Positions 417-52,948 of a stretch of DNA of 64,000 nt are shown here, piece by piece. The stretch is from Sinohyriopsis cumingii. Taxonomy: Eukaryota; Mollusca; Bivalvia; Unionida; Unionidae. The first letter of the stretch is position 1. Each line of letters opens with the position of its first letter. The notes beneath the pieces are model-generated. The model was given only the letters and a program-made list of their open reading frames with translations. It was not told where the DNA came from and made no database searches. The stretch is from the NCBI GenBank assembly GCA_028554795.2, contig CM068830.1, forward strand, positions 49,300,355-49,364,354, in the 5' to 3' direction. Both the position numbers and the translations under genes were made by a program.

Positions 417-1733
417 ATGATGCACCGAGAATCTTGCGCTTGTTCCAAGACGGAACTGGATCTGTTTGCCATGCCCCCCACCATGATGACGATGCAAGAA
501 TCCCAGTGGGTGGAATTTCAGCCCGTCTCCTCACTGACCGATTCCGCTCCCATCGAGTTTGAAATCAAAGGACAGCCCGAAGATTACATCGATCTGAATA
601 GCAGTTACTTGTACTTGAAAGTCAAAGTTCAAGATAAGACTGGAGGTGATATAGACACTGAGCCAGTAGCTCCCGTCAACAATTTCATGCATTCCTTGTT
701 CAGTGGAGTGGACTTGTACTTGAACAACAAACTGGTCAGTAGCAGCATGGATACTTACCCTTATCGAGCGTACCTGGAAAATCTCTTGACGTACGGAATA
801 GACGCCAAGAACACTCATCTCAATGCCTGTGTGCTATGGGAAGCTGACGAAGCAGGCCAGTTTGAAAATTTAGAAGCTGATGAAAAGAAAGACAACAATG
901 AGGGATTTGTAGAACGAAGAAAGAGAATCATAGGACCCAAGAAAAGTTTAGAACTGATGGATCGTTTGCATTTGGACATGTGGTTGCAGGAAAAGTATTT
1001 GCTGAACTTGGTAGATGTCCGCCTGAGACTGAATCGGAGCAGTACCGCTTTCCATTTATTGGCTGATACTGACGATAATTACAAAACCAAAATCGAAGAA
1101 GCCAGACTCTACGTACGCCGCGTGGAAGTGTTACCTAAAGTGGGTAACGACATCAGTCAGACGTTGAGCAGAACGACCGCCAAGTATCCCATACGACGCG
1201 TGGAAGTGAAAACCTTCACCATTCCCAAGGGACAGCGATCCATGATCGAAGATCATCTGTTCCAAGGACAGTTACCCAAACGTTTGATCGTTGGTATCGT
1301 CGAGAATGAAGCCTTCAACGGAGCTATCAATAAAAATCCTTTCTACTTTCAACACTTTGGCGTGTCCAAAATCGAAGTCAGTCGCGATATCAAGACCTTG
1401 TGTACCCGACCTTTCGAACCTGACTTTACCAAGAAGAATTACTTGAGATCGTACTTGTCCTTGTACGAAGCCACCGGACAGTTAGGAACCAACACCAATC
1501 GCGGCATTACGTACGACGATTATGTAGGAGGCTATGCTTTGTGGGCTTTTGATTTCACTCCAGACCAAGGCATCAACGAGGGACATTTCCACCCTATAAA
1601 ATCCGGCCAGATTCGTGTGGAAATTCAGTTTGCAAACCGAGTCCCTGATGAAACGGTGAACGTCATGCTGTATGCAGAATTTGATAATACCATAGAAATC
1701 AACAGTTTGAGAGAAGTCATTCTAGATTACTAG
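417..1733 (+). CDS. F54H12.2-type capsid protein (probable double-jelly-roll major capsid), intact
   Basis: This is a 438-residue open frame starting at the tandem ATGs at 417/420. A longer frame from TTG at 399 exists but has no support. The protein is rich in beta-strand-like segments, with PVNNFMHSLFSGVDLYLNN near residue 85, KNPFYFQHFGVSKIEVS near residue 305 and a C-terminal half ending in a VNVMLYAEF strand. This pattern belongs to the animal 'F54H12.2-like' proteins encoded by Maverick/Polinton-type elements, which are interpreted as major capsid proteins. It would assemble the icosahedral shell together with the minor protein encoded just upstream. It is uninterrupted, while the two following genes each carry a stop, so decay is recent or capsid coding was kept longer. 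Assignment as hexon-like rather than penton-like is inference. Confidence 0.68.
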   Translation: MMHRESCACSKTELDLFAMPPTMMTMQESQWVEFQPVSSLTDSAPIEFEIKGQPEDYIDLNSSYLYLKVKVQDKTGGDIDTEPVAPVNNFMHSLFSGVDLYLNNKLVSSSMDTYPYRAYLENLLTYGIDAKNTHLNACVLWEADEAGQFENLEADEKKDNNEGFVERRKRIIGPKKSLELMDRLHLDMWLQEKYLLNLVDVRLRLNRSSTAFHLLADTDDNYKTKIEEARLYVRRVEVLPKVGNDISQTLSRTTAKYPIRRVEVKTFTIPKGQRSMIEDHLFQGQLPKRLIVGIVENEAFNGAINKNPFYFQHFGVSKIEVSRDIKTLCTRPFEPDFTKKNYLRSYLSLYEATGQLGTNTNRGITYDDYVGGYALWAFDFTPDQGINEGHFHPIKSGQIRVEIQFANRVPDETVNVMLYAEFDNTIEINSLREVILDY

Positions 1734-2240: not shown

Positions 2241-2801
2241 ATGGATACCTGGGAACTTTATTACCTTTTGAACCACAGTTCGTATACGGCTTCTTGGAAT
2301 CCTGTCGTCTGTGCTAAAGATGAACTCCCTCATCGCAAACCTCAAGACCATCAAGCTTACGTGATCAACACGGACGACAGTCATCTCCCAGGAACCCACT
2401 GAATAGCCGTTTACTTTCCTCAAGAAGGATGTGTGAAATATTTCGATTCGTACGGATTGCCCCCTTTGGAAGACGATATCATTGACTTTATGAGAAGAAA
2501 TGCTCAAACCACCCGATTCAATAATGTGAAATTACAAGGCACAGATTCCTTGGTGTGTGGACAGTACTGTGTGTATTTTCTGCATCATCGCAGTCTGGGC
2601 TATTCTTATGAACATTTAGTGACTCATTTTGATCCTCGTTCTTCTTCAAGAAACGATGTGAAAGTAGATCGATGGTTTTGTGACCATTATGCTTATCTTT
2701 TGTCTCAAGCTAGGAAACGTAGTGTCCATCAATGGCCTAATGATTTCCAACAGTGGAAATCACAATTTCATTCACAACGTTGTCAGCCCTGTTTAAAGTA
2801 G
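2241..2801 (+). pseudogene. Adenovirus-type (Ulp1-like, C5) maturation cysteine protease with premature TGA
   Basis: The frame from ATG 2241 to TAG encodes about 186 residues, close to the usual size of adenain-like proteases. Codon 54 (2400-2402) is TGA. It directly follows the His of the P-G-T-H block, where the family has Trp. The rest of the catalytic set is present downstream: an acidic residue in the FDSYGLPP segment, then the oxyanion Gln and nucleophile Cys in LVCGQYCVYFL. In adenoviruses and Polintons this enzyme processes virion proteins, and here it follows the capsid genes as expected. A single G-to-A change (TGG to TGA) explains the break. No joined protein is offered. The fragment after the stop lacks the His and should be inactive. 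Confidence 0.75.
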
Positions 2802-3045
2802 ACTGTCAATTGAGAAAAAAATGTTTGTGATTTGAAAAAATTGTTTGATGTTATCATGTTGGATTATTGTTTAAAATATGTTAAAGTTGTTGTTTAGTGT
2901 TAAGTGATTTTTGAATAAAAATTGTTGTGTTTTGAAAAAATGCCTTTGTCTTTTGTTTAGCTATAAGAATGTTGGATTGATGCTCTTTCACTTCTTACTA
3001 TCCCTCTCATGACACTCATTGAACGTTGCGACTCGAAAACCGTGT

Positions 3046-3088
3046 GGGGGATGTTTTCCTTCACGTCCGCGCTTTGACTTTAAGAACC
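3046..3088 (+). promoter_or_regulatory. Repeated promoter module, copy 1
   Basis: A GGGGGATGTTTTCCTTCAC core is followed by GTCCGCGCTTT and a degenerate TATA (CTTTAAGAAC). It lies about 50 nt before the ATG of the first small gene. Near-identical modules precede the second and third small genes and their relative at 22.1 kb, always at similar spacing. Confidence 0.65.
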
Positions 3089-3139
3089 GGGGGCAGTTTC
3101 CAGTCTAACCATCCATTGTCGACTCATCCTCCTACGAAG

Positions 3140-3499
3140 ATGTGCTCCAAACTAGCTAAGCTCAACGAAGCCTACGTGAATTTGCATAGGGTCAGACACA
3201 GTCTGATACCGAAGCCAGAAGAAATAGAGAATGTGAGAATGTTAAAAGTCACTGAAGACCTGATAGAAGAGCTCTTCAGAGAAGAAATGAACAGGGAGAA
3301 AGAAGAATGGACAGAGAAGTACAGACTTCAAAGACAGCAGCAACAGCAACAACAACAACAACAGCAGCAGCAACCTGAACCTGACAGAGGCTTTGTCGAT
3401 TGTCGTATCGACACCAAAGAGTTCTTCTTCTCTTTCCGAAGAAGCAGACCTATCGCCAGAAAGTCTATCCTCAGAGGACATCGCATTCTTAGAAACTAA
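3140..3499 (+). CDS. Small gene 1: charged helical protein with poly-Gln tract
   Basis: A 119-residue frame begins at the ATG about 50 nt below promoter module 1. The N-terminal half is helical (KLAKLNEAYVNLHRVRHSL) and moves into a Glu/Lys/Arg-rich coiled coil. About 15 nearly pure Gln residues follow (3340-3372, mixed CAG/CAA), then a basic C-terminus (FRRSRPIARKSILRG). I do not recognise the family. It heads a run of three similarly organised small genes sharing promoter and 3' hairpin, so it is probably co-regulated with them. Mixed CAA/CAG use argues the Gln tract is not just a fresh microsatellite expansion. Function unknown; a virion or host-interaction protein is possible. Confidence 0.5.
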   Translation: MCSKLAKLNEAYVNLHRVRHSLIPKPEEIENVRMLKVTEDLIEELFREEMNREKEEWTEKYRLQRQQQQQQQQQQQQQPEPDRGFVDCRIDTKEFFFSFRRSRPIARKSILRGHRILRN

Positions 3500-3520: not shown

Positions 3521-3640
3521 AAAAACAGCCCTTTTCAGGGCTACCCCAATACTCTAGAAAAGAAATAACCATCGATTTGCCAATGTGTGTAGGTAGAGTA
3601 GTGTGAAAATAAGCACTAACTCTTTTTTAAAAAAATGTGA
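3521..3640 (+). repeat. 3' tail shared with 4321-4436
   Basis: About 115 bp from the hairpin through CAATGTGTGTAGGTAGAGTA and AGTGTGAAAATAA to a T-rich stretch is nearly identical to 4321-4436 behind small gene 2. The rest of the spacer (3641-3845) is AT-rich with CACGTACGTTG..GTGGATAG motifs also found at 4480-4560 and in the 21.4-22.1 kb array. Confidence 0.75.
3527..3567 (+). terminator. Histone-mRNA-type 3' stem-loop and downstream element, copy 1
   Basis: AGCCCTTTTCAGGGCT forms a perfect 6-bp stem with a TTTC loop, flanked 5' by AAAAAC and 3' by ACCCCA. A purine-rich TAGAAAAGAAAT lies about 13 nt downstream. These are the parts of a replication-dependent histone mRNA 3' end (stem-loop plus U7-binding element). 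It begins 28 nt after the small gene 1 stop codon, a typical histone distance. Confidence 0.7.
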
Positions 3641-3845
3641 GGGTATGTGATTGTGTATAGGATTGTGTGTTTGTAAGTGATCACGTACGTTGCTGTGGAT
3701 AGCAGATTAAAATAATGTTTTTGGTGTTTGAGGTGTAGATTTGGGGTTAGATTGCTTTGCGTATGTAAATAGTCTATTGAAGTGATTTATAAAAAATTTT
3801 AGAATAGGAATGGGTAGCATAAAAAAGTGAGTGAGTGTTTCTTTT

Positions 3846-3950
3846 AGGTCCGCGCGTTGTTTCTTTGGTCATGATCTAGGTAAGATCAATTTTATATTTT
3901 TAGGGGGATGTTTTCCTTCACGTCCGCGCTTTCACTATAAATTGAAACTC
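3846..3950 (+). promoter_or_regulatory. Repeated promoter module, copy 2 (compound)
   Basis: It has a distal GGTCCGCGCGTTGTTT, then GGTCATGATCTAGGTAAGAT (about 3869), then the proximal GGGGGATGTTTTCCTTCAC core with CGCGCTTTCACTATAAAT. The TATAAA lies about 45 nt before the ATG at 3993. Confidence 0.65.
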
Positions 3951-3992
3951 GCTGGGCAGTCTAGCTACCCTTGTTGATTGATCATCACAAGA

Positions 3993-4301
3993 ATGAATAG
4001 CAGAATAAGCAAACTTCTTGAACTCCAGATACATCTGGAATATGTCAGGCGCCTGTTAAATGAACTGGCCGCGGAGGCTATAGTAGAAGAGGAAAGAATA
4101 AAGAAGGAAGAGGAGGAGAGAATACAGAGGGAAGAGGAGGAAAAGAAAATAGGAGAGAGGATGTCGTACAATATTCCCGAGACAGAGGATTGGGGTGTTG
4201 AAGCGAATCATCCTCCCTCTGCGCTCCCCAGAAGAAAGGTGAAAAGAGACTGGGGAAGAAGATGCGTGTGTGGCGCCAGGCCAGGAAGGTGCCATCATTA
4301 G
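3993..4301 (+). CDS. Small gene 2: coiled-coil protein
   Basis: The 102-residue frame is taken from the first true ATG below the TATA box; a few extra upstream codons would need a TTG start. Residues 1-30 are Leu/Arg-rich and helical (LLELQIHLEYVRRLLNELA). Residues 30-55 are a very regular Glu/Lys/Arg coiled coil (EEERIKKEEEERIQREEEE). A less regular tail ends in a Cys- and His-containing stretch (RRCVCGARPGRCHH). Not recognised. The N-terminal helix spacing resembles that of small gene 3, which suggests a diverged gene family produced by duplication of the promoter-gene-hairpin unit. Confidence 0.5.
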   Translation: MNSRISKLLELQIHLEYVRRLLNELAAEAIVEEERIKKEEEERIQREEEEKKIGERMSYNIPETEDWGVEANHPPSALPRRKVKRDWGRRCVCGARPGRCHH

Positions 4302-4327
4302 ATAGGTGCATCTGGAGTTCAAAAAAC

Positions 4328-4369
4328 AGCCCTTTTAAGGGCTACCCAATACTCTAGAAAAGAAATAAC
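4328..4369 (+). terminator. Histone-mRNA-type 3' stem-loop and downstream element, copy 2
   Basis: AGCCCTTTTAAGGGCT has the same 6-bp stem with a TTTA loop, an ACCCA 3' flank (the exact histone consensus) and TAGAAAAGAAAT downstream. It begins 27 nt after the small gene 2 stop. Confidence 0.65.
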
Positions 4370-4578
4370 CATCCATTTGCCAATGTGTGTAGGTAGAGTA
4401 GTGTGAAAATAAACACTAACTCTTTTTTAAATAATGCAAGTGTATGTGTTTGTGTGTTAGTGATTGTGTTCGTAACTGCTCACGTAAGTTTGTGTGAATA
4501 GTAGATTATGGGTTTCTTTATTGTTTCTTAGCGTATGTGGAGAGTATAGTTAGGGTTTTATTATATGAAATGAGAAAG

Positions 4579-4690
4579 TAGGGGGATGTTTTCCTTCAAG
4601 TCCGCGCGTTGTTTGGTCATGATCTAGGTAAGATCAATTTTATGTTTTAGGGGGATGTTTTCCTTCACGTAAGCGCTTTAAGTATAAGAA
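4579..4690 (+). promoter_or_regulatory. Repeated promoter module, copy 3 (tandem)
   Basis: Two GGGGGATGTTTTCCTTCA cores (4580 and 4650) flank a GGTCATGATCTAGGTAAGAT block. The proximal core ends in AAGCGCTTTAAGTATAAGAACC, a TATA about 45 nt before the ATG at 4729. This matches the compound layout of copy 2. Confidence 0.65.
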
Positions 4691-4728
4691 CCCACAGTAT
4701 TCGTCGTTCAAACCATTCTACAGAGAAG

Positions 4729-5109
4729 ATGGCTTCGAACCACCTCGATAAATTTCAAACATTGCAAGACGTCCTTGACAATTTGGGCATGATAGAACAA
4801 ATGCTAGTACGACTCAATGAAGACCACTATTCTTATAGTCCGCATAGAGTAAAAATGGAAATTAACAATTTAAGAAAAGCAAAGGATATGATAAGTGGTG
4901 TAATGAAGGAAATAAAGGAGGAGAAGGAGGATGAAGAGGAAAGGATAAGAATACGAAAATGGAATGAAAAAATTGAAAAAGAAGAAGACAATGAGAAGAG
5001 GAAGAAAGAAGAGGAGGAGGAAGAGAAGAAAGAAGAGGAGGAGAAAAAAAAGAAGAGAAAGAGTGTAGGTGAGAAAATAAGAAATTGGTGGAGAAAACGA
5101 AGAAATTAG
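4729..5109 (+). CDS. Small gene 3: coiled-coil protein with basic/Trp C-terminus
   Basis: A 126-residue protein starting MASNHLDKFQTLQDVLDNLG. It has a globular or helical N-terminus to about residue 60, a long Lys/Glu coiled coil (residues 60-110) and a short basic end, RNWWRKRRN. A broken homologue with the same start (SNHLDK), the same middle (NLGMIE.MLV.L) and the same Trp-basic end lies at 22.17 kb, so the gene has been under selection as a unit. No known family is recognised. It is the last gene before the tandem-repeat element end. A virion scaffold or host-directed factor is possible but unproven. Confidence 0.55.
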   Translation: MASNHLDKFQTLQDVLDNLGMIEQMLVRLNEDHYSYSPHRVKMEINNLRKAKDMISGVMKEIKEEKEDEEERIRIRKWNEKIEKEEDNEKRKKEEEEEEKKEEEEKKKKRKSVGEKIRNWWRKRRN

Positions 5110-5131
5110 AAGCAGAAGAAGAAAAACAAAA

Positions 5132-5175
5132 GGCCCTTTTCAGGGCCACGCATATTTCTCGAAAAGAGAATGACT
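5132..5175 (+). terminator. Histone-mRNA-type 3' stem-loop and downstream element, copy 3
   Basis: GGCCCTTTTCAGGGCC is a perfect GC-rich 6-bp stem with a TTTC loop, preceded by ACAAAA, followed by ACGCA and then CTCGAAAAGAGAATGAC. This is the best match to a metazoan histone 3' end in the window, 23 nt after the small gene 3 stop. Confidence 0.72.
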
Positions 5176-5224: not shown

Positions 5225-5436
5225 TCCCATATTCAATTCCCCTTGTCCCTAAACAAGCCCAAACTCTATTCCTCATGTTAAATTCCCCTTGTACGTAAAA
5301 TGACCCACGATTTATTCCCATGTTAATTCCCCTTGTTCGTAATCTGACCCACGAGTTTTCGCCATGTTAAATTTCCATTGTACGTAATCTGACCCAGGGG
5401 TCTCTGTAATGCTAATTTCCATTGTACGTAATGTAT
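5225..5436 (+). repeat. Tandem repeat, about 47-bp unit, at element end
   Basis: Four diverged units contain CCATGTTAAATTCCCCTTG and TACGTAATCTGACCCA. The same motif string reappears at 22.83-22.88 kb behind the paralogous small gene, so it likely belongs to the element terminus. Confidence 0.7.
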
Positions 5437-5450
5437 CCCTACTTACTACT

Positions 5451-5607
5451 GACGGACACTTTCATCACACATCGGTCTGTCATAGACGGACATTTTCAAC
5501 ACACATCTGTCTGTCATAGACGGACACATTCATCACAAATCCACCTGTCATAGACGGACACTTTCATCACAAATCGGCCTGTCGTGGAGGACACTTTCAT
5601 CGCAAAT
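5451..5607 (+). repeat. Tandem repeat, about 34-bp unit
   Basis: Four to five copies of GACGGACACTTTCATCACA followed by TCGGTCTGTCATA. It directly abuts the 47-bp array and may mark the outer end of region 1. Confidence 0.75.
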
Positions 5608-6184
5608 ATATAAGGGCTGTATTGTATGTTAAAGTTATAAAAGAAACGGTTCACTGATGGAAAGAAGGTTGAATAGTTCTGGAAGCAAAGCAATTAAATA
5701 CATTTTGTTGGGCTTGAAGAAAAGAGACTAGCGTTTTAATCTTGTAAAATAATGTTTATTTTCTCCAGAAAGATGGTCATAAAGTAAATATAAACAATAC
5801 ACTAAAAACATGGGAGAGTAAAATGTGCTCAATTTTAACATTTTTAATTCCAATAAGGATGAACTAATTTTTTTTAATTTTACTCCGGTATATCGGTACT
5901 TCAAACATATCTAGATAATTTTGTTCAGTTGACAATAAATTCTCAGTAAATGTTGTAACATTACATCTAATAGATCATTAAGAAAATGAATACGAGTAAC
6001 ATGGAAAATATCCAAAGTCTAAAATATTGTAAATGGAAAAACAATTAATTTACTTACTGTAGAGTGAATTGTATTTGCTAACGTTTGTGAAATATAATTT
6101 TTACTACCAAAATGTCATTGTCTGTCTGTAAGCTTTTTTCATAACACATGGATGCTTAAGTACTCTTTGATGGACACCAGTCGA
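5608..6184. other. AT-rich spacer, no feature seen
   Basis: No convincing coding frame, RNA gene or repeat is seen in this stretch. Stops are dense in all frames. Confidence 0.5.
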
Positions 6185-6555
6185 TTTCCATACTGTATGA
6201 TTAAAACTCTGTATAATTAATTTTCCATACTGTATGATTAAAACTATGTATAATTAATTTTCCATACTGTATGATTAAAACTCTGTATAATTAATTTTCC
6301 ATACTGTATGATTAAAACTTTGTATAATTAATTTTCCATACTGTATGATTAAAACTCTGTATAATTAATTTTCCATACTGTATGATTAAAACTTTGTATA
6401 AATAATTTTCCATACTGTATGATTAAAACTCTGTATAATTAAATTTCCATACTGTATGATTAAAACTCTGTATAATTAATGATACATACTGTATGATAAA
6501 AACTCTGTATAATTAATTTTCCGTACCGTATGATTAAAACTCAGTATAATTAATG
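6185..6555 (+). repeat. Minisatellite, 37-bp unit, about 10 copies
   Basis: The unit begins TTTTCCATACTGTATGATTA and continues AAACTCTGTATAATTAA. The first eight copies are very similar and the last two carry more changes. Confidence 0.9.
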
Positions 6556-10200: not shown

Positions 10201-13200
10201 GGTAACAATCAGTGATTTTAATGTTGAGTATTTTAAATAAAAAGCCAGTTACAGCCAATTATTCAGATACATGTTGTCTGCAATTCAAACAATTGTATTT
10301 CATTCCAATATAAAAAATGGCGATGGTATTTCAGATCTGTTCTCATCTTCTTTAGCAAAGCTTCCTTTTGTTAAACGTGGAAGCAATAATTGTAAGCATA
10401 ATTCTAACACCCCTTGCAATTGCAGCTCTATATTAGATAGTACTTGGTTTCCAAGTTGATCTGAAAATTCCTACTAGATGTAATCAACAACACTAATATT
10501 TACAACAAATATAAACAGTTTATACATTTTAATAAAGACTTTTAATTTTCTAATGGAATCTTTAATCATCACAGTCAGCACTGTTAATGAAAGGCTTCGC
10601 CTATTCCATTCTCGCTACATAGAGGTGGATTATTGAATTAGGAAAGATACCTAGCAACCCTGTCTACTTAGCCTTGTAACCTTCTAAGACTATGTCATTT
10701 AAATTGCATACAAATAATATTTTCATAAAGTTTAACGCTTAACAATTGTATATTTTTAGGTGGATAGGATTGTACGCTAAATGTTTCAGAATATCTTCCT
10801 AATCCTCACATGGGTGGATAATGTATTTAAAGAACAAAAACTCATCTAGCACCGGAGTTAGGTCAGTCGTATAAATAAACGGCTACAGTTCTGGTCACTT
10901 AACGAAAATCGCTTGGGATGCTCATTTATCCGAATAGCTTAAGGGTGAAGAAATAGCATGAAAATCAAAAATATTTGTAAATACAATCCGTTATGAAGCT
11001 ACATTTCGTTTCAGTATGATAACGAGGTTCCCAGAAAGCATGAAATGCGTAAAAACGAAAGGGGGTGGGTTAGTAAAAAGTTTGCGGTTAAGGGATAGAT
11101 GGATTTTATAGGCCAGGATAAATGTATTTAATATATTCCGGTCCAAAAATAGCAAATACTTATTATACCAACGTTGGTATATGACATACTGGTTTTTTTC
11201 TCCAGCACAATGTGGGTTATGCAATGTTTGTTCGGCACATTTTTGTTGATCGGCCCTTAGTAGGGTCAAATCGTTGAGTTCTTGTTGGTCCAACATGTTT
11301 GCCAACCGAAGATAATGTTAACAATATTGGTCCAACAGTCAAACAATGTCACAATCCATGAAGAATTGATATTGTCCCAACAAAATGTTGCTAGCTACTG
11401 ACAGTTGCTGTTTTGGTCCAACTATTGACCCTTCTTGCCCAAAGAAATACTGCAAAATGCTGACAAAGCAGGATCTGCATTTAAATAATATATTTTCCAA
11501 TGACCCATAAATGCTATAAGTGTTTCACTATTGATTGGAATCAAAAATAGGGAGAGCAAATTTTCGATGCGTATTTCAATAGCTACTTCAGCATTAAGGA
11601 AAAATATAGTGCAGTCTTATATTTTCAATTATGATACATTATTTCAATCAATACAATATTTAGTTCATTGGTAAAGCAGGAAGGAATAAGTTGCTGCAAT
11701 ACATGTCTCTCAAAATATCGATAAGTAGCGTATGTCTGCACACTGATATATTTCAACCAGTGTCAGTTGATGCTGTGACATTTTTAGTAAAGGTTAACTT
11801 TCGTTAATTATTTGAGGAACATATTGAATAAATTCAGATCAGATCAATTATTGGAGGATTAAACATAAGGTTCATTTCAAGAAATATATCGATCTGAAAT
11901 CGAATGACAATCCAATTAATTTTGTGAATCTTTAGAAATGAGGAAGGACACAAAATATTTACACACTGAATAGACAACAAAATGTAAGTATCTTTAATCT
12001 TAGCATCCAATCAAAGCAGAACACTGAAATATATCAGTCCACGACACTAACACGTATTCTCATAATGCGATTACAATTAAATAAAATATTAACACAGGCG
12101 TGGCTAGCTAAGTTAATATGCAACTAGTACACATGTCTTTTTGAGTGCTTTTACATATCCCCGAACCAAAGGTTTGAAGTTGTTCTTATGATTGTCATCA
12201 TTTGTTTATGATGTGTCATCTCTTCTTTCTCTCTTCCCTCTCTTTTGTAACCCCTTCTCTATCCATTTTCATTGATATGTTAATTCTGGTACGTCGTTAT
12301 GTATCTGAAGGAGAACAATATTCTATTCTCTTTAAAGATGCATAATCGCTTGCCGCGCCATTAAATGTTTGACTTCTTGCAAGTCTTAACAGTTTTAATT
12401 TAACCAGAAATCCCATTTATGAAAGTGAATTCAAAGTAAACAAGTGATTTGGTTGTATGTCTGATTAAAGGAGTATTATAAGACAGATCCACTGTAATAT
12501 CAATCATCAAAATAACAAAGATGGCGACTATATGTCCTTCTTTAATAAATGCTTTTCTAAATCCACATTGGACATCAGATAGTAGTTTATAGAAATGTTT
12601 ATAATGAGAGGTAAGTGTTTCAGAAGCTGACAGTGGATCTCATCCGGTTCTGATTCTATTGAAGTGACATGGACTCAATCAGAAGGAAATTTTAGTTCTC
12701 AGAGAGAGAAACGTTTATTGCAATCTTCAACACTTAAAGATTTTAAATTCCCACGAACCTTTTATTTAAGCTTTTTCATACTGCATTAATAAATAATTAA
12801 TAGAATCGTCAAATCCTTTCGAAGGCAAGGGGGTTCTGTAATTCCTTATTCGTACGTTGGAAACAGTCATTTCCACTCGCACCAGTGAACTACGGCTCTT
12901 TCAGTAGAGCTTGGACTTTTGTGTCACAATGTTATTGTAACCTCAATAGCCCTTTTGTGTGTCCTTCTCTTGTTCTACTTAGGGAAGTCGCTAAAGAAAT
13001 AGACGTGGTCGCCCTACTAAAGTGGCCGCCCTACTAATTCGCATCTAAGAACCATTGTGACCCTCCTGCCCAGATCTGGGGCGAACTCAATCAATCAATC
13101 AATCTTGAAACTATGTTTATGTTGGCCCTACGTTTGATAGTTCAAGTACCGCAAAGGATTAGGGATGAACCAGTGGATTAGGATATTCAAAAGCCAGGCT

Positions 13201-20649: not shown

Positions 20650-21037
20650 ATGGAAGAGACAGCACAGATCGACCTGCTGGTCAAAGATTTGCTAAGAGTC
20701 ATACGAAAATATAATTCACAGGCGAAAGTGGCAACAAAACGTACCTTCGCTGATTTGATGAGGGTCATACGAAAGTGTATAAGTGCTGATGAAGTTTTCT
20801 ATATCTGCAACGTAAATGGGTATTGTCTCCAGAATATCTTCTTCGTCCAAGAAAGAGAGACAAAAGTCAAGATACATGTCATCGTTGTCAGGAGAAAGGA
20901 CACTGGGCTTCAGAGTGCCCTAAGAGAAAAGAGAAGAAACAGAAACAAAAAGAAAAATAAAGAGGGGTTAAGAAGAAGAAGATATTGATGATGAGGAAGA
21001 ACTTGTACCAGTGAAGAGATGGAAATGGAAAAATTGA
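20650..21037 (+). pseudogene. CCHC zinc-knuckle protein, broken over three frames
   Basis: The start at ATG 20650 (AATATGG context) opens MEETAQIDLLVKDLLRVIRK, which contains an internal repeat (LLRVIRKYNSQA, then LMRVIRKCISA). Near 20,810-20,830 the coding sense moves to another frame. There a perfect knuckle C-x2-C-x4-H-x4-C (20877-20918, CHRCQEKGHWASEC) is followed by a Lys/Gln-rich tail. After 20,960 a third frame carries an acidic end (EDIDDEEELVPVKRW) to TGA 21035-21037. Zinc knuckles bind single-stranded nucleic acid in Gag-like and viral proteins. It precedes an orphan copy of the small-gene promoter, so it probably belongs to the related element. A host nucleic-acid-binding gene is the alternative. 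Confidence 0.5.
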
Positions 21038-22091: not shown

Positions 22092-22133
22092 AAGGGATGT
22101 TTTCGTTCATGTCTGTGCTTGACATATATAAAG
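22092..22133 (+). promoter_or_regulatory. Repeated promoter module, copy 5
   Basis: TAAGGGATGTTTTCGTTCAT then GTCTGTGCTTGACATATATAAAG. The TATA box lies about 45 nt before the ATG of the broken small gene, as in the other copies. Confidence 0.6.
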
Positions 22134-22172: not shown

Positions 22173-22537
22173 AAATGACTTCGAACCACCTTGATAAAAT
22201 GAAGAGGTACAATATGTTATATACAATTTGGGAATGATAGAGGAGATGCTAGTCAAACTAGATGAGTTAAGATGGAAATCGACACTCTGAGAAAATCAAA
22301 GGATATATTAAGGGAACTAGTTAAAGAAGAAAAAGAAGAAACGGAAGTCATAGAAAACAAACAGGGGATGAGAGAACGTAATGCTTAGATTTAAAAAGAA
22401 GAGGAGAATGAAAAGAGAAAAAAGAGGAGTTAGTGGAGAAGGAAGAAGAAAAGGAGGATAAAAAGGAGAAGAAAAAGAAGAATGTGATATGGAGGATAAG
22501 GTGCTGGTGGCAAAGAAAACGAAAAGGCAGAAATTAG
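22173..22537 (+). pseudogene. Broken paralogue of small gene 3
   Basis: It opens MTSNHLDK, almost the start of small gene 3, then loses frame within 15 codons. The matching core (NLGMIEEMLVKLDE) continues in a second frame, and KMEIDTLRKSKDILRELVK in a third. A Lys/Glu-rich stretch ends in RCWWQRKRKGRN before TAG 22535-22537, matching the Trp-basic end of small gene 3. At least two frameshifts and stops disable it. It keeps the promoter upstream and a hairpin 16 nt after the stop, so the duplicated unit is promoter-gene-hairpin. Confidence 0.75.
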
Positions 22538-22552
22538 AATAAGATAACCAAC

Positions 22553-22590
22553 GGCCATTTTCAGGGTCATTCCACTGTCTCGAAAAGTTT
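22553..22590 (+). terminator. Degraded histone-type 3' stem-loop, copy 4
   Basis: GGCCATTTTCAGGGTC keeps the TTTC loop and most of the stem (one G-U pair and one mismatch) and is followed by CTCGAAAAGTTTTG, the same downstream element as copy 3. Confidence 0.6.
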
Positions 22591-51654: not shown

Positions 51655-51960
51655 TTGATAGCAGCAACGAGGGCGCTGTCTCAGCCCCCAGTCACCTCCG
51701 CGATCTTTTTTTATTTTTGTTGTTGCGATTTTCAGGAAGGCTTAGTTTTACAATTCGAGAGTGAGTCAATCAGAGTTTGTTCACCATATCTCTCTAGCAT
51801 TATTTGTTATAATTTTATTTAACTATAGCAGCAGAGAGGGTGAACAGCCTCATATGTGTCACGGTGCCGCCGCAACCTTTTTTGCGATTTTCAGGAAGGC
51901 TTAGTTTTACGATTCGAGTGTAAGTCAATTAGAGGCTGTTCACCCTCTCTGCTGCTGGAC
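51655..51960. repeat. Putative right terminal repeats of the second element
   Basis: Two imperfect tandem units share GCGATTTTCAGGAAGGCTTA plus GTTTTAC (51,725-51,751 and 51,884-51,910). The outer unit is bounded by perfect 25-bp inverted arms (51,827-51,851 and 51,932-51,956) that read AGCAGCAGAGAGGG... and its complement. The inner unit has a weak version of the same arms. All coding ends at 51,633, so this is probably the terminus. Confidence 0.65.
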
Positions 51961-52948
51961 CCAGACAATATTTTGGACAGTGTTTTATTCGCACATGTCA
52001 TATGGGGAGGGGACTAAGAGGGGAGCCTTTGTATATACTTGTATTTTTGTAAATTATTTGTCAATATTTTGATTTCCGAAAAAGTCTTTTGAACTCTCTA
52101 TACGTAATGGTATCACGGGAATCATGAGACTTGGTTAGTAGTATATCTCGATATATACTTTTCCGTGTACACAAAAGTAGATCAGTGTGTCCCCATGTTA
52201 GACTGCACTGAGTTGGGTTAAATTTTGTTTTAAGTTTATCTCTCAAACTCTGTTCAAGATGACGTTATTAAATTTTGTAATTGGATGAATCACTATTCGT
52301 ACCACACCATTGCAAAAAAAAATCACTTTGACCTAAATCTCACATTTTAAAGGCTTAAATTAACTATTTGCTTGTATCTGATAACCACGTAATTGTTTGC
52401 ACAGTGTATACATACGTTTATACGTGGAATCATGAAACGTGGTGAGCAGATCTTTATTGAAGTGTACTGCACCCTGTATGTGTAGTGACCCTGATCACAA
52501 ACGTAGGTCACTGTAACCCATATTTCATGCATCATTTACTTGGGCACATTCTGCGTTTTAAGTTTATTTATCAAGAGCATGATAGACTCATCAAACTAAT
52601 ATATTATATGAATCTCTATTAGTGACTCACACGTAGAACAAAATAATGTGACTGTGACTCATGATTCACATTTACTTGCTTAGATGGAGTTTGTGCAGTA
52701 TTGCATGCTCACGTAAAAATAAATTCTTTATATATAGCCTATTATATCCAGAATTATGAATTTTCCTTAGGGCATGCATTCTGATGAGGATCACACACTC
52801 GTAACAACTGCAGGCCACTACAATTCATATTTCACGCGCTCTTAATTAAGTTAAATGATGTGTTTTAGCTGTTCGTGCTCTAATCATTAGACTAAATCGT
52901 TGTATACATCGAGTTCAATACCACACCTGTTTAAGAATGATACTGCTC
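51961..52948. other. Flanking spacer
   Basis: AT-rich, short minus-strand frames without coding character. Three stretches repeat ACGTG/ATGTGACTC...TCATGA-like words around 52,130, 52,430 and 52,650; they may be old repeats. Confidence 0.35.

Follow-up and report, generated by a model that had tools for sequence, protein, structure and literature searches.

In animals, SLBP binds a stem-loop near the 3′-end of histone mRNAs and the U7 small nuclear ribonucleoprotein (U7 snRNP) pairs with an element downstream of it. CPSF73 cuts a few nucleotides past the stem, and the mRNA, which lacks poly(A), is produced and retained chiefly during DNA replication. The 3′-end of metazoan replication-dependent histone mRNAs, modelled in Rfam as RF00032 (Histone3), combines a 6-bp stem, a UUUC or UUUA loop and an ACCCA-like flank with a purine-rich element 13–14 nt past the stem, and it follows small, uninterrupted open reading frames (ORFs). 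Histone mRNAs are described as the sole protein-coding mRNAs of metazoans whose 3′-end is a stem-loop and not poly(A) (PMC6303110). Here we describe a virus-like element that has the sequence features of such 3′-ends, and in which the genes that carry them are not histone genes. It was found in a stretch of 64,000 nt from the bivalve Sinohyriopsis cumingii (assembly GCA_028554795.2, contig CM068830.1, positions 49,300,355 to 49,364,354), which we call the window. We consider it highly likely, judging from sequence, that a Polinton/adintovirus-type family of this bivalve carries five small non-histone genes built as histone genes.

The element family shares with Polintons (Mavericks) and adintoviruses an F54H12.2-like capsid, a type-B DNA polymerase (PF03175), a protease-like gene and its size, with 16.3–20.9 kb separating the outer hairpins in 12 arrays. 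Among the matches listed by full-text literature searches, no histone-type 3′-ends or promoters were found for Polintons, adintoviruses or other mobile elements. Some adomaviruses are described as encoding histone-like “Histoid” proteins (PMC11071296), but these are a different thing from the histone-type signals of the element.

One end of the element makes up the first 5 kb of the window. In order, it has the capsid gene, a short gene (up3), the protease-like gene (PRO), an AATAAA and three small genes, S1, S2 and S3 (Table 1). An earlier note, made from the sequence alone, had the small genes ending 23–28 nt before a hairpin and GAAAAGA following about 13–20 nt later; the distances measure 22–27 nt and, for S1–S3, 13–14 nt, and the positions were right to within a few nucleotides. 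All three hairpins lie on the coding strand, with a 6-bp stem and a 4-nt loop. The pattern GCCCTTTTMAGGGCYAC-N5-14-GAAAAGA has three matches in the window, and none is expected from 100 dinucleotide shuffles. A covariance scan with Histone3, the check that had been proposed, matched all three ends, and the match to the S3 end (5127–5172; 36.8 bits, E 4.2e-7) exceeds the curated cut-off of 34 bits.

The histone genes of the host are built in the same way. H4 has 114 matches in the genome, mostly in arrays whose unit measures about 8.3 kb. In the unit that was read (L066, G000:C531:6300-14650; about 8.3 kb), H4, H2B, H2A, H1 and H3 lie on one strand. All five are followed by a Histone3 match of 35.0–39.4 bits and by a GAAAAG core, which takes the form TAGAAAAGA in four of them. 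S1 and S2 mostly carry this host form, and L1, L2 and S3 often carry TCGAAAAGA (L1 and L2 being the small genes of the other element end, described below). Copies of the element reach 45.6 bits in Histone3, above the host's own histone genes.

The likeness extends to the promoters. A 24-nt motif resembling GATGTTTTCC(A/T)TCACGTCCGCGCT is common to the host H1 and H2B promoters and to S1–S3. When the form found at S1, GATGTTTTCCTTCACGTCCGCGCT, was sought in the host histone unit with up to three mismatches, only two sites appeared, upstream of H2B (one mismatch) and of H1 (two), and none was expected. Local alignment of 250-nt upstream regions gave scores of 35–43 for S1–S3 against H1/H2B, the best of 300 single-base shuffles being 26–33. 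The S2 upstream also aligns with that of host H4 (score 42, shuffle maximum 30) through the motif TTTCTTTTAGGTCCGCGCGTT, a match that the S1 and S3 upstreams did not give. Nothing significant against the host histone promoters came from the regions 5′ of the capsid gene, the protease-like gene and the zinc-knuckle gene. Genome-wide, the 24-nt motif with two positions left free has 24,957 exact copies, and its reversed control has none; the first sites listed are often 750–900 nt apart, which is the spacing of S1, S2 and S3. In the host these promoters drive histones, whereas in the element the same motifs stand on non-histone genes.

The hairpins recur throughout the genome (2.9 Gb in 1138 contigs). 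With GAAAAGA included, the strict hairpin pattern occurs at 52,028 sites, against none for the reversed control. A small part of these are histone genes, since host H2B ends also fit the pattern. Chance hairpins are ruled out by the zero expectation in the shuffles together with the zero of the reversed control. A Histone3 search scored 75 hits, all above the cut-off (top 45.6 bits), spread over all of contigs C1–C18 and six smaller ones. These are the ones scored out of 589,472 candidates, a selection toward strong hairpins. In the 55 of the 75 loci that were read (L002–L009 with 1.5-kb flanks only), tblastn with human histones found no histone ORF, which rules out adjacent histone genes as the source of the hairpins. 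All 55 contain genes of one or the other end of the element: among the first 48, 33 are of the left-end type and 16 of the right-end type, one locus being both, and the last seven divide into four left and three right.

The right end is the one seen in the window. At the left end, two small genes, L1 (about 77 aa) and L2 (about 190 aa), are divergently oriented, each bearing a hairpin, about 1.1 kb apart. Near this pair lie a zinc-knuckle ORF and the gene of a type-B DNA polymerase; PF03175 was found near L1/L2 in both loci scanned for it (L037, E 1.5e-18; L028, E 1.7e-8). The two ends belong to one element. Among the first 100 strict sites listed, at the start of contig C1 and typed by hand, 60 make up 12 complete five-hairpin arrays, with the expected orientations and in the order divergent pair, then S1–S3; the outer hairpins span 16.3–20.9 kb (median 19.5 kb). 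Thus, one element bears five histone-type ends. Some of the copies may be segmental duplicates. If extrapolated, this sample, which is not random, would put the complete arrays in the genome at several thousand. The family is enormous in any case: a search with the protease gave 17,806 first-look candidates, and the best 150 matches listed, apart from the window's own, are 98% identical.

As loci found through their hairpins are bound to have them, five copies were hand-picked down the list of the 150 best protease matches, blind to hairpins. They carry the hairpin at S1 in 5/5, at S2 in 5/5 and at S3 in three of the four testable (it is absent in L068, and the stretch of L070 is too short). 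Counting G-U pairs as intact and taking the ends of tblastn matches as gene ends, intact hairpins in the fetched loci number 35/38 for L1, 31/36 for L2, 12/14 for S1, 15/20 for S2 and 5/6 for S3. The control genes of the same loci have none (PRO 0/13, up3 0/11; 0/24 together). A GAAAAG-like element follows the hairpin in L1 (30/34), L2 (32/32), S1 (10/11), S2 (16/17) and S3 (5/5). The outer pair of the stem is G-C in L1 (32/34), L2 (28/32) and S3 (5/5) and A-U in S1 (11/11) and S2 (15/17); tblastn match ends were used in both of these counts, and L002 enters S2 twice. This is a compensatory change, probably the product of one or two events. The protease-like gene, in turn, is followed by AATAAA or ATTAAA before S1 in 5/5 other copies.

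Among copies fetched for reasons other than their hairpin, the mean pairwise differences of stem-loop, spacer and GAAAAGA are.020,.138 and.053 for L1 (19 copies),.036,.170 and.000 for L2 (20 copies),.027,.082 and.024 for S1 (14 copies), and.061,.197 and.017 for S2 (20 copies). In all four genes, the stem-loop and GAAAAGA are less variable than the spacer between them. The coding frames are constrained as well, with pN/pS of 0.20 for L1, 0.45 for L2, 0.29 for S1 and 0.41 for S2.

In sum, the central proposal of the earlier note, that non-histone genes of a Polinton-type element have histone-mRNA-type 3′-ends, finds strong support in the covariance model, the host histone genes, the genome-wide recurrence and the controls within the element. 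As a whole the note is borne out in part: its reading extends to the promoters of S1–S3 and to the ends of L1 and L2, and its coupling of supposedly late genes to S-phase RNA processing stays a proposal. The best reading of the sequence is that a Polinton uses histone-type transcription units, and the element probably borrows the DNA-replication-linked gene control of its host.

Several observations weigh against this. The ends of S2 (4323–4368; 31.1 bits, E 5.6e-5) and S1 (3522–3566; 29.3 bits, E 2.7e-4) fall under the RF00032 cut-off. S1 and S2 have in common a stretch of 114 nt, hairpin included, that is 88% identical; they are therefore duplicates and not independent cases within the window. 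The GAAAAG-like element is missing in 4/34 L1, 1/11 S1 and 1/17 S2 copies, and the five flank bases of L1 are variable (.194). The 40 nt further downstream differ by just.060–.117 (those of S2 no more than its stem-loop), and conservation thus reaches beyond the signals. On the promoter side, the S1–S3 upstreams had no match to those of host H2A and H3, which are without the 24-nt motif, and the L1 and L2 upstreams had no significant match to the host histone promoters. The trans-acting factors were elusive. For U7, the best match to RF00066 in the genome was below cut-off (29.3 bits, E 0.27), and 12 of 14 control genomes were matched too; a pattern search gave 230 matches, fewer than the 372 of its control, and six candidate stretches, two of them too short to judge, had no clear U7 3′ hairpin. 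SLBP was not found in an exon-by-exon search of the genome, a search that was silent in all 14 controls as well and is thus uninformative. Finally, six distant relatives, 26–44% identical in the capsid protein, had no such hairpin; Histone3 was run on five of these loci (L050–L055) and a script alone on L055. They are contigs in prokaryotic metagenome-assembled genomes (MAGs), the loci may stop short of the element ends, and the assembly of L051 is error-rich. The recurrence that the note had set as a check thus holds within the family in this genome and not in the six relatives that could be scanned, and the arrangement may be peculiar to this lineage.

Could the signals be relics? The small genes might descend from captured histone genes whose coding parts were replaced while the signals were merely carried along, unused. 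As an origin, capture fits the finding that promoter motif and 3′-end are both like those of host histone genes. Moreover, of the first 100 hairpins in the list, 40 lie outside complete arrays, and the region 10–50 nt past GAAAAGA is fairly conserved, which means that some of the conservation may reflect recent copying. But unused signals should decay evenly, and the spacer is more variable than the stem-loop and GAAAAGA on either side of it; five different genes have kept the signals, and the frames of L1, L2, S1 and S2 are under constraint. We regard relics as unlikely.

Two other explanations appear less probable still. The palindromes could act at the DNA level, in a terminal-repeat, replication or integration function, the outermost hairpins being near the element ends; the S3 and L1 hairpins do face outward, and the A/T-rich flanks beyond them are alike, with CCATGTTAAATTCCC-like repeats. 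Three of the five hairpins are internal, however. All are on the coding strand, a near-constant distance past a stop codon, and have an ACCCA-like flank and GAAAAG at the histone spacing, and the identical arrangement is found in host histone genes, which makes a DNA-level role very improbable. Slightly more improbable is that these are ordinary hairpins that stabilize mRNAs polyadenylated further downstream. AATAAA or ATTAAA does occur 3′ of some of them (window 3706 and 4408; L067 872), but L070 and L071 have no such motif between the S1 hairpin and S2, unlike the interval after the protease-like gene, and ordinary hairpins would leave the near-constant spacing of GAAAAGA and the histone promoter motif unexplained.

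Table 1. Features of the element end and of a second, decayed element in the window (position 1 is the first nucleotide of the window).
Feature	Position	Strand	Basis or remark
Major-capsid (hexon)-like ORF, F54H12.2-like	417..1733	+	Protein homologue search
Protease-like ORF (PRO); control, no hairpin	2433..2801	+	
AATAAA 3′ of protease-like gene	2914..2919	+	
S1 histone-type promoter motif GATGTTTTCCTTCACGTCCGCGCT	3050..3073	+	0 mismatches
S1, 119-aa non-histone ORF	3140..3499	+	
S1 histone-type stem-loop, outer pair A-U	3527..3542	+	Rfam RF00032, below cut-off; 27 nt after S1 stop
S1 GAAAAGA, histone-downstream-element-like	3557..3563	+	14 nt after stem; core as in host histone genes
H4-promoter-type motif 5′ of S2	3838..3862	+	Alignment with host H4 upstream
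S2 H1/H2B-type promoter motif	3907..3930	+	0 mismatches
S2, 102-aa non-histone ORF	3993..4301	+	
S2 histone-type stem-loop, outer pair A-U, UUUA loop	4328..4343	+	26 nt after S2 stop
S2 GAAAAGA element	4357..4363	+	13 nt after stem
Promoter-motif copy 5′ of S3	4585..4608	+	2 mismatches
S3 H1/H2B-type promoter motif	4654..4677	+	2 mismatches
S3, 126-aa non-histone ORF	4729..5109	+	
S3 histone-type stem-loop	5132..5147	+	22 nt after S3 stop; above Rfam cut-off
S3 GAAAAGA element	5161..5167	+	13 nt after stem
Zinc-knuckle ORF fragment of second, decayed element	20650..20921	+	tblastn E 5e-11
Decayed promoter motif of second element	22096..22119	+	
S3-like coding fragments of second element	22175..22266	+	tblastn E 1e-4
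Decayed fourth stem-loop	22553..22568	+	5/6 standard pairs, one G-U

The products of the small genes are not histones, as no histone family is among the Pfam matches of S1–S3, L1 and L2. Pfam gave nothing above cut-off for S1 (scanned as 3026–3499) or S2. A protein of the unionid mussel Sinanodonta woodiana matches S3 at 80% identity over 64% of the S3 length. The predicted fold of S3 is a helical hairpin that includes a long, charged helix (helices of about 29 and 88 residues, mean pLDDT 85). The C-terminal ends of L1 and L2 are basic; the structure model of L1 is poor (mean pLDDT 56). Roles in DNA packaging or in readying the cell for replication are guesses. Twenty relatives of L2 were found on contigs of 0.9–2.3 kb, one 97% and the others 58–68% identical; beyond this genome, related elements or viruses apparently exist.

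The capsid ORF has 969 homologues, several of the 120 listed being named F54H12.2-like, and the best animal-named ones among the matches listed are from Mercenaria (52–53% identity). F54H12.2-like proteins we take to be Polinton/adintovirus hexons. The protease is presumably adenain-like, a label that does not come from Pfam, as the Pfam scan of PRO gave no match. Its open frame is 132 aa in the window and about 200 aa in most other listed copies; the element copy in the window is thus probably partly decayed. The capsid genes of L050–L055 lie in MAG bins of Escarpia and Bathymodiolus symbionts, Breoghania, Leptospiraceae and Poribacteria, and Polinton/adintovirus-like capsid genes in bacterial bins are probably contamination. 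The two hairpins that a script met in these relatives, in L051 and L054, lack the histone flanks and are unrelated. Shortly 3′ of the capsid gene in L051 there is a weak match to the twister-P1 ribozyme (11734–11798; 28.9 bits, cut-off 67.2). Searching viral contigs with the capsid protein, and with an alignment of it, gave no lead, and the one hairpin-pattern match among viral contigs (L001) is a chance match inside a phage-like gene.

The window also holds the second, decayed element of Table 1. The fourth, diverged hairpin that had been noted at 22.55 kb does exist, as a decayed stem-loop after an S3-like fragment and with GAAAAG at 22582, 13 nt 3′ of it; RF00032, however, has no match there at E ≤ 10. 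Short degenerate repeats occur around the S3 end (5228–5590), with a similar 25-nt stretch after the decayed copy, at about 22.84 kb. A tandem repeat with a unit like CCATACTGTATGATTAAAACTCTGTATAATTAATTTT lies shortly 3′ of the first element (6180–6500). Elsewhere in the window, an inverted repeat with long, near-perfect arms (51812–51967) resembles the MIR529 model, under cut-off and on both strands, and is more likely a foldback transposon (miniature inverted-repeat transposable element) than a microRNA.

In closing, we return to the reading of the small genes as histone-type transcription units and to how they might work. From the known histone pathway we infer cleavage, the use of SLBP and U7, coupling to S-phase and polyadenylation of the other genes. 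L1 and L2 lie near the DNA polymerase B gene at one end of the element, and S1–S3 after the capsid and protease-like genes at the other. S1–S3 would start from the promoter motif common to host H1 and H2B, and S2 from the H4-type motif as well. Each transcript would end in a stem-loop for host SLBP, followed by GAAAAGA for host U7 snRNP, and a cut by CPSF73 a few nucleotides after the stem would leave an mRNA without poly(A). The small genes would then be expressed, exported and translated as replication-dependent histone mRNAs are, in cells that replicate their DNA, and the capsid and protease block would use ordinary poly(A) signals. We give an even chance to the fuller proposal that, in a class of virus-like elements, small regulatory or packaging genes are run as counterfeit histone genes, histone-type at promoter and 3′-end alike, their products made only during DNA replication.

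What is new here is that non-histone protein-coding genes of a mobile, virus-like element have the complete known set of cis-signals, with tens of thousands of recurrences. For annotation this is a caution, as Histone3 hits do not necessarily mark histones. The element offers a natural way to ask how far the histone signals suffice, be it for S-phase coupling, for export or for translation without poly(A). In this genome the counterfeit ends outnumber genuine histone genes about ninety-fold (52,028 strict sites vs. about 5 × 114). If transcribed, they would be numerous enough to compete with the host's histone mRNAs for SLBP and U7. As mimicry of the host by a lineage of DNA viruses, the arrangement would be of a new kind.

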